Shown piece by piece: positions 14,144-26,190 of a DNA stretch of 36,310 nt. The notes beneath the pieces are model-generated. The model did no database searches. It had not been told where the DNA came from and saw nothing but the letters and a program-made list of their open reading frames with translations. Both the position numbers and the translations under genes were made by a program. This DNA is from Candidatus Gottesmanbacteria bacterium. Lineage in GTDB: Bacteria > Patescibacteriota > Microgenomatia > UBA10105 > UBA927. Where the stretch lies: NCBI GenBank assembly GCA_016218215.1, contig JACREM010000092.1:1-36310 (forward strand), given 5' to 3'. Position 1 is the stretch's first letter, and the number at the start of each line of letters is the position of its first letter.

Positions 14144-14161
14144 CGTTACTTCGTTAGTTCG
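14144..14161 (-). repeat. 18-mer CGAACTAACGAAGTAACG (minus-strand orientation)
   Basis: Plus strand CGTTACTTCGTTAGTTCG; its first 12 nt are inverted relative to the octamer array downstream; same 18-mer, interrupted, in comF at 25803. Confidence 0.8.
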
Positions 14162-14180
14162 ATATCTATTCGAATCAGCA

Positions 14181-14244
14181 ATTTAACGAATTAACCAATT
14201 AACTAAACAACGAAGTAACGAAATAACAATTAAACGAAATAACT
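14181..14244 (+). repeat. Octamer tandem array, 8 degenerate units
   Basis: ATTTAACG AATTAACC AATTAACT AAACAACG AAGTAACG AAATAACA ATTAAACG AAATAACT. Confidence 0.8.
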
Positions 14245-25188: not shown

Positions 25189-25505
25189 ATGTTAGAAACG
25201 TCAGACGTTTCTCCTGTTTTAAACAAACCACGGTTTTATGTATATGTTCTTTACAGTTTTTTGATAAAGGATTGTATATAGGGTTTACGAAAGATTTAAA
25301 ACAGAGGCTTTTGCAACATTCAAAGAGACAAGTGGCTTCGACAAAAATTCGCGCGCCTTTTCTTCTTATTCACTACGAATATTTTATAAATCAAAAAGAC
25401 GCGAAAGCAAGAGAAGTATTTCTTAAAAGTGGATACGGAAGGGATCAATTGAAAAATATTATTAAAAATACTTTCTCTTTTATAAACAGTCATGCATCTT
25501 CTTGA
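25189..25505 (+). pseudogene. GIY-YIG nuclease-like gene split by a -1 frameshift at T_TTT_TTG (25257-25263)
   Basis: Frame from ATG 25189: MLETSDVSPVLNKPRFYVYVLYSF, then stop at 25279; the -1 frame continues FDKGLYIGFTKDLKQRLLQH...AREVFLKSGYGRDQLKNI. Could be pseudogene, sequencing error or programmed frameshift. Confidence 0.75.
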
Positions 25506-26190
25506 TGTTCTTTTTCCCAAGTTGTGCGTTTCGTGCGGCAGATGGGGAGCATACATCTGTTCATCCTGTCAAAAAAATATTGTACCGATTGAACAGCGGG
25601 AAACGATCTGTCCAGTTTGCGAGAAACCCGCCATGATGGGTATGACACATCCTTACTGCAGGACTCGTTATGGCATAGATGGCCTGACAACTTTTTTCCA
25701 CTATAAAGGTCCGGTTCGAAATTTTGTCCAACAGATAAAATATAAATTTGTTTCAGACATGGTCTCGACTTTTGTCTCTATTATCCCTCAATCGAGAATT
25801 CTCGAACTAACGAATCCGCCAGCTGGCGGACGAAGTAACGACATTGTCATCGTTCCCGTTCCCCTTCACCCTCGTAGGCTTCGGCATCGTGGATTTAATC
25901 AGGCGGAAAAAATATCAGAATTTCTCTCAGAAAGAACGTCTATTCCGGTTATAAAAAATATATTGAAACGAGCCAAATATACAAAGCCACAAGTAGAAAA
26001 AAAGACGCGTGAAGAGCGGATGAAGCACATGGATGGCGTGTTTGTTGTTGATAAAAAATATATACAAAATATAAAAGGCGTGTTTTTGGTAGACGATGTC
26101 TGTACCACTGGCGCAACACTTCGCGCTGCCGCTCGAGAATTAAAAAAAGCAGGAATACCGTGGGTCTGGGGTGTTACAATGGCACGGTAA
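25492..26190 (+). CDS. ComF family phosphoribosyltransferase
   Basis: CVSCGRWGAYICSSC..CPVCEKP; VPVPLHPRRLRHRGFNQAEKIS; GVFLVDDVCTTGATLRAAA. Confidence 0.92.
   Translation: MHLLDVLFPKLCVSCGRWGAYICSSCQKNIVPIEQRETICPVCEKPAMMGMTHPYCRTRYGIDGLTTFFHYKGPVRNFVQQIKYKFVSDMVSTFVSIIPQSRILELTNPPAGGRSNDIVIVPVPLHPRRLRHRGFNQAEKISEFLSERTSIPVIKNILKRAKYTKPQVEKKTREERMKHMDGVFVVDKKYIQNIKGVFLVDDVCTTGATLRAAARELKKAGIPWVWGVTMAR
25815..25830. repeat. Perfect 16-bp palindrome TCCGCCAGCTGGCGGA inside comF, flanked by CGAA duplications
   Basis: CGAA(25811-14)-TCCGCCAGCTGGCGGA-CGAA(25831-34). Confidence 0.9.

Follow-up and report, generated by a model that had tools for sequence, protein, structure and literature searches.

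Elhai and colleagues reportedly described, in 2008, very small, mobile-looking palindromic repeats in cyanobacteria (SDRs), some of them nested in short heptamer arrays. REPs and REPINs are short dispersed hairpins, and hairpins are what RAYTs act on (PMC3116915); REPs lie outside genes, beside those of RAYTs, and most carry a GTAG or CGTC tag (PMC3733652). The GC clusters of yeast mitochondria are short GC-rich mobile palindromes that merge with other repeats (PMC4478555). The palindromic elements of Rickettsia are described as in-frame palindromic repeats in unrelated protein genes, whose products tolerate them (PMC10969869, citing Ogata 2000).

The 36,310-nucleotide stretch of DNA analyzed here (the window; Candidatus Gottesmanbacteria bacterium, contig JACREM010000092.1 of assembly GCA_016218215.1) carries a repeat of comparable kind within its comF gene: a 16-bp perfect palindrome, TCCGCCAGCTGGCGGA, inside an array of the octamer CGAANTAA. 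The exact 16-mer is a dispersed repeat, present in bacteria of at least four phyla, and chance was ruled out as the source of the copies by their numbers together with the near-zero number of control copies. The palindrome in comF probably belongs to a minimal dispersed repeat that is non-autonomous, forms a hairpin, replaces a few bases and at this locus makes up a composite with the array. A sequence-only reading of the window had instead described a mobile palindrome that entered a pre-existing array with a 4-bp target duplication; its observation was confirmed and proved to be larger than described, and its interpretation was partly supported.

The palindrome and the octamer array in comF

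The comF gene (25492..26190, plus strand) encodes a ComF/ComFC-like phosphoribosyltransferase with a zinc ribbon (Pfam DZR_2 and Pribosyltran); a PDB search with ComF gave no match at 0.001. On the same strand the gene contains the 5' part of the octamer array (CGAACTAACGAA, 25803..25814), the palindrome (25815..25830, translated as (N)PPAGG) and the 3' part of the array (CGAAGTAACG, 25831..25840). This arrangement, CGAACTAACGAA-TCCGCCAGCTGGCGGA-CGAAGTAACG at 25803-25840, had been reported correctly in sequence and coordinates, and it lies in frame in an intact ORF of 232 amino acids. As RNA the palindrome is computed to form a 6-bp hairpin with an AGCU loop (-10.2 kcal/mol). Some perfect 16-bp palindrome is expected about 0.5 times per 36 kb (36310/4^8), and the palindrome alone is therefore unremarkable; its exact repetition is what counts.

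Orthologues of comF were identified in 55 out of 59 genomes (the genome of the window included), and they show the region before VPxPLH to be a length-variable insertion spot, in support of the insertion that had been placed there. The loop up to this motif varies from 21 to 36 residues among the orthologues, and the stretch ending in VPxPLH has 33 residues in the window compared with 25 in several close relatives. The spot tolerates inserts, because in other members of the family it holds different hairpin repeats (ATTCCCGCGAAAGCGGGAAT with the peptide HSRESGNP in L014, the comF of G004, and ATTCCCGAACAGGTCGGGAAT in the comF L019) or octamer-like stretches (the comF genes L012 and L024). The insert in the ComF of the window would likewise simply be tolerated and is unlikely to contribute to ComF. 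As a separate observation, a ATTCCCGC..GCGGGAAT repeat encodes the HSRESGNP of the L014 loop in frame, and at L194 a similar repeat, encoding VIPAKAGI, adjoins the palindrome in frame.

Outside comF, the uninterrupted 18-mer CGAACTAACGAAGTAACG occurs exactly once in the window, as had been noted, on the minus strand at 14144..14161. This intergenic array lacks the palindrome, as does a second, degenerate intergenic CGAANTAA array beside it (14180..14239, plus strand), and in the genome of the window about 18 places besides 14144..14161 hold octamer arrays without the palindrome. One palindrome-free array (L004, G000:C1:6343-6362) lies in frame within an ORF for a protein of 326 aa, on the strand that is stop-free there (FVTSLVR).

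Copies among genomes, genes and structured RNAs

The genome of the window (1.27 Mb in 96 contigs, scanned in stretches that cover 1.263 of 1.271 Mb) contains three exact copies of the palindrome and none of the reversed control. A fourth copy, TCCACCAGCTGGCGGA, has one mismatch, and three copies of a relative, TCCGTCAGCTGACGGA, are also present. Within the family, 17 out of 24 genomes carry exact copies (76 in total, control 0), and within the phylum 66 out of 288 genomes do so, with up to 22 copies each (control 0). Further genomes contain 36 copies (Daviesbacteria), 21 (Elusimicrobia), 11 (Balneolaceae), 8 (Bacteroidia), 4 (Taylorbacteria) and 4 (one other bacterium), and 23 out of these 29 further genomes, a non-random sample reached through a search for a related pattern, contain none; the control occurs once in one of the 29. 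All genomes are contig assemblies, many of them metagenomic. The earlier view of an inserted palindromic element is supported in so far as the palindrome is dispersed and tolerated in frame. The 16-mer was not found in print in the literature searched, a scope that leaves out most subscription journals.

Several related repeats were observed alongside the exact copies. In the genome of the window, relatives at L329:5271, L353:683 and L319:158 (TCCGTCAGCTGACGGA twice, TCCGCCAGTCGGCGGA once) adjoin or sit inside short arrays based on TTGGTAGT or TTGGTTA, and the relative in L329 has TTGG on either side. At L463:1501-1542 (Elusimicrobia), two palindrome copies stand 10 bp apart, each followed by GAGAAAAGA, in one ORF that encodes NPPAGG and RQLA; this pair looks like a tandem duplication of the palindrome plus its flank.

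As the palindrome is its own reverse complement, both strands give the same three peptides, none of which contains a stop. Thirty sites lie well within long ORFs, and within long ORFs the reading frame is that of (N)PPAGG in 21 cases, SASWR in 6 and RQLA in 3 (P = 5e-5 against thirds). The host genes include those for ribosomal protein L1 (rplA), SecA, an SDR reductase, HtrA, a XerC-like integrase, DnaJ, a GalT-like protein, DUF2298, trigger factor (tig), Rho and ComF. Annotators should bear in mind that an (N)PPAGG, SASWR or RQLA stretch in a CPR protein can stem from repeat DNA and not from protein design. One copy (L001:1501-1516, G000:C47:3317-3332) was observed in a linker rich in Pro and Thr within a calcium-binding-repeat-like protein; shortly past the palindrome the open frame ends, a similar linker goes on in another frame, and the copy may have broken its gene.

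Structured RNAs and other repeats are also occupied. The palindrome is present in a variable peripheral hairpin of the 23S rRNA of G004, in a glmS ribozyme (L059; the ribozyme L068 has another hairpin at that place), in the D-loop of tRNA-like genes of G006, G008 and G012 (recognized by eye in the sequence of the D-arm), in the loops of other hairpin repeats (L062, L214 and L215) and in tandem arrays (L002, L192, L193, L208 and L239). Taken together, the occupied sites seem to be ones where a hairpin or loop is tolerated, through targeting or survival. The tRNA-like loci (L070 in G008, L210 in G012 and L223 in G006) are 5' halves in which the palindrome replaces the D-loop, and at L210 a group I intron was observed about 290 bp away; the three may represent one tRNA gene that is split by an intron and has an enlarged D-loop.

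The palindrome recurs at one position of rplA in G008, G009 and G012. In the rplA tree, calculated with the insert left out, G008 pairs with the empty G018 (97/97) and G009 with the empty G007 (98/94), the carriers do not form one clade, and three changes are needed to explain presence and absence; a tree that holds the three carriers together fits worse (AU p = 0.04, only just significant). Because the carriers do not group together, the tree suggests that the site was hit more than once, that the palindrome was lost several times, or that it moved with gene segments. The palindrome is 16/16 identical in G008 and G012, in which neighboring synonymous sites differ.

Joints and candidate routes of spread

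A direct repeat at the joints is absent from 48 out of 77 sites, and some repeat is present at 29. Flanking repeats of 3 bp or more were observed at 9 out of 77 sites (2.3 expected), five of which lie within tandem arrays or next to them, and there a repeat is uninformative because the array supplies it for free. Since most of the excess falls at such places, target duplication was rejected as an insertion mark on the 77 sites. A longer palindrome or a common flank was rejected as well, as the palindrome extends by one base pair or more at only 16 out of 77 sites; the flanks vary beyond it, with A at -1 and R at +3 weakly preferred.

Comparison with empty orthologous sites indicates replacement. 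In rplA, the empty G018 reads ...GAG AAA AAA GAC TAC CGC... and G008 reads ...GAA AAA AAT CCG CCA GCT GGC GGA ATG CGC..., a change of 16 nt in and 4 out with a net gain of four codons (+12 nt), and the same 16-for-4 change is found in G012 and G009 (the G009 copy with one changed base). The DUF2298 gene of G012 reads AACACA-PAL-TCGGACC (PAL, the palindrome) where relatives read AACACA-AAGA-T(C/T)GGACC, again 16 for 4 with a net +12; that of G002 has the same 3' joint as G012 and has lost more upstream. Compared with orthologues in the genome of the window, Rho and the L190 ORF show a net +12, HtrA +9, the SDR reductase +6 and one gene 0, the others being uncertain; the net lengths other than the mode, in residues, are 0, +2 and +3, and -1 in G002. 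The modal change at empty orthologous sites is therefore +12 nt, with 16 nt replacing 4. The mode of 4 nt is informative and partly shaped by selection for frame at coding sites, because frame is also kept when 1, 4 or 7 bases are removed or 2 are duplicated. The own-genome search thus recovered what the sequence-only reading had anticipated, further palindromes (three exact copies, that of comF included, and one mismatched) and arrays without them, but most copies lack the flanking duplication, and the claimed 4-bp duplication of CGAA gives way to the replacement of about 4 nt. Within an array of period 8 bp a 4-bp duplication and a 4-bp replacement are indistinguishable and give the same letters, hence the apparent CGAA duplication in comF.

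If the palindrome is a minimal repeat that replaces a few bases, new copies would arise without target duplication, most often with 4 nt out and 16 in (net +12 nt), and would be accepted where one more hairpin or (N)PPAGG is tolerated, namely in the loops and linkers of proteins, in the loops of RNA hairpins and in short tandem arrays. Copying may pass through a single-stranded hairpin, either on the lagging strand or in DNA taken up by competence, as a route of this kind in replication or DNA uptake would be in keeping with bases being replaced and none duplicated. The exchange of about 4 nt with no duplication also speaks against classical transposases, and no donor gene, enzyme or intermediate was found in the genomes examined. 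A stronger proposal, of a 16-bp hairpin that spreads by itself unchanged across phyla, substitutes about 4 nt, typically adds four codons and returns to one and the same site in essential genes like rplA, is put forward tentatively and is itself rather doubtful; we know of no transposition mechanism that spreads an unchanged 16-bp hairpin with replacement of about 4 nt. Should the reading hold, the palindrome would be among the smallest dispersed repeats known, unchanged across phyla, and would edit essential proteins and rRNA with a fixed small loop. The mechanism can be tested by strain comparison, because the three rplA lineages have empty sister genomes.

An alternative, which appears unlikely, is that the palindrome is a REP-type element mobilized by an IS200-like Y1 transposase (RAYT). 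This explanation gains support because RAYTs act on hairpins and insertion of the IS200 type leaves no target duplication. Family genomes with no Y1_Tnp match contain 0, 1, 0, 0 and 0 copies and those with a match mostly carry the palindrome (Mann-Whitney P = 0.007, Fisher P = 0.014, the genomes not being independent), Y1 genes thus being present in most carriers and lacking in most non-carriers, but the correlation with copy number is weak (rho 0.40, P = 0.056) and G008 combines 14 copies with a single Y1 ORF of 140 aa. Furthermore, the palindrome lacks the GTAG/CGTC tag, and the Y1 genes are flanked by other palindromes, TCAAGGCC..GGCCTTGA and TCAACCCC..GGGGTTGA; only one of the Y1 stretches (L387) contains the palindrome, about 1.2 kb off, and no copy was seen adjacent to the Y1 genes examined. 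A second palindrome family, CAAGGCC(A/T)GGCCTTG (up to TAGCTTCGCAAGGCCTGGCCTTGCGAAGCTA), was observed in 12 copies on several contigs of the genome of the window. It may be a REP of these transposases, because the similar TCAAGGCC..GGCCTTGA palindromes flank Y1 genes in relatives.

It is quite unlikely that, as the sequence-only reading proposed, comF first took up the octamer array and only afterwards the palindrome, by transposition into that array with duplication of CGAA. CGAA does stand directly on both sides of the palindrome, arrays free of it exist at 14144-14161 and elsewhere in the genome, and array-nested copies at other loci have similar overlaps of 3-5 bp; nevertheless, the 8-bp period masks the difference between duplication and replacement, sites outside arrays show replacement, and the 48 joints lacking a repeat count against duplication. 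The reading also called the result in frame, which is true of the intact comF, but removal of the palindrome plus one CGAA takes out 20 nt and breaks the frame, so that the empty site would end in E-L-T-K-stop and leave a ComF cut short at residue 108 until the second insertion took place. Any NTAA in place of the palindrome also gives a stop, and in any uninterrupted CGAANTAA array read on the plus strand a stop follows within three octamers.

The nesting itself stands, as palindromes lie within octamer arrays at two other places in the same genome; the array-first order is what truncates ComF. Arrays of CGAANTAA make up about 0.09% of this genome, and three out of its four palindrome copies lie inside them, all in one phase (binomial P about 3e-9, or about 2e-6 when the window copy that prompted the analysis is left out). 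The loci read CGAA-PAL-CGAA (comF), CGAA-PAL-A-CGAA (C53) and CGAA-PAL'-G-CGAA (C70), and for this reason a composite repeat of palindrome and array fits better than array first and palindrome second. In this genome the palindrome would accordingly form a composite of the type CGAA-PAL-(n)CGAA, at three places and in one phase. As the array alone in this frame gives a stop codon, it was most likely the composite, or both of its parts at once, that entered comF; otherwise the gene would have been broken for a time. The composite CGAA-PAL-nCGAA is absent from 334 other genomes of the class, and the CGAA flanks of L159 and L161, outside the class, were demanded by the search pattern. Across all 77 sites a score for flank periodicity displayed no clear enrichment at the thresholds used, and the link with arrays therefore rests on the genome of the window and the single cases L192, L193 and L208.

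A function in DNA or RNA (terminator, stabilizer, protein-binding or uptake site), for which the palindrome would be conserved or regained without being selfish, likewise has little probability. Its identity in the rplA of G008 and G012 despite the differing synonymous sites, its copies at gene ends and in hairpins and the stability of the RNA hairpin agree with it, but genomes contain just 0-36 copies and most contain none, many copies lie within coding regions and there clearly favor one of the peptide frames, and no common position relative to genes was seen. Least probable of all is that the copies are passengers of homologous recombination or gene transfer and not mobile themselves: the rplA, tRNA D-loop and DUF2298 copies are common to several genera and the hosts have competence genes such as comF, but most copies lie in unrelated genes at unrelated sites, and the rplA flanks differ strongly among carriers that share an identical palindrome.

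Comparison with known palindromic repeats

The palindrome is set apart from transposase-mobilized MITEs by the missing constant target-site duplication, 48 out of 77 sites having none and empty sites showing about 4 nt replaced. It shares with the GC clusters of yeast mitochondria a short GC-rich mobile palindrome that merges with other repeats; these clusters are organellar, and the active one has 42 nt and AG as target nucleotides, unlike the 16-mer. REPs and REPINs are short dispersed hairpins as well, but the 16-mer is often intragenic (the 30 sites within long ORFs), the flank composition of the 77 sites contains no tag of the GTAG/CGTC type, and the copies do not flank Y1 genes, which have other palindromes.

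The likeness to the palindromic elements of Rickettsia, which had been drawn from the comF copy, holds as an analogy and no further. Presence in frame in unrelated conserved protein genes, with tolerance by the host protein, is common to both. The Rickettsia elements are about 150 bp long and encode a conserved peptide, whereas the repeat described here is an exact 16-mer encoding 4-6 residues that also occurs in rRNA, tRNA and a ribozyme and in several phyla.

Cyanobacterial SDRs are similar in kind. Here too a tiny repeat occurs at non-orthologous sites and within short tandem arrays, and it has been gained at orthologous sites (rplA, DUF2298 and Rho) relative to empty relatives. Sequence, hosts and array period differ, and an identical 16-mer across phyla and the replacement of about 4 nt are, to our knowledge, no features of SDRs. 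Overall, the palindrome belongs with the small dispersed palindromic repeats, the closest being the cyanobacterial SDRs, the REPs and the GC clusters, with the Rickettsia elements as an analogy.
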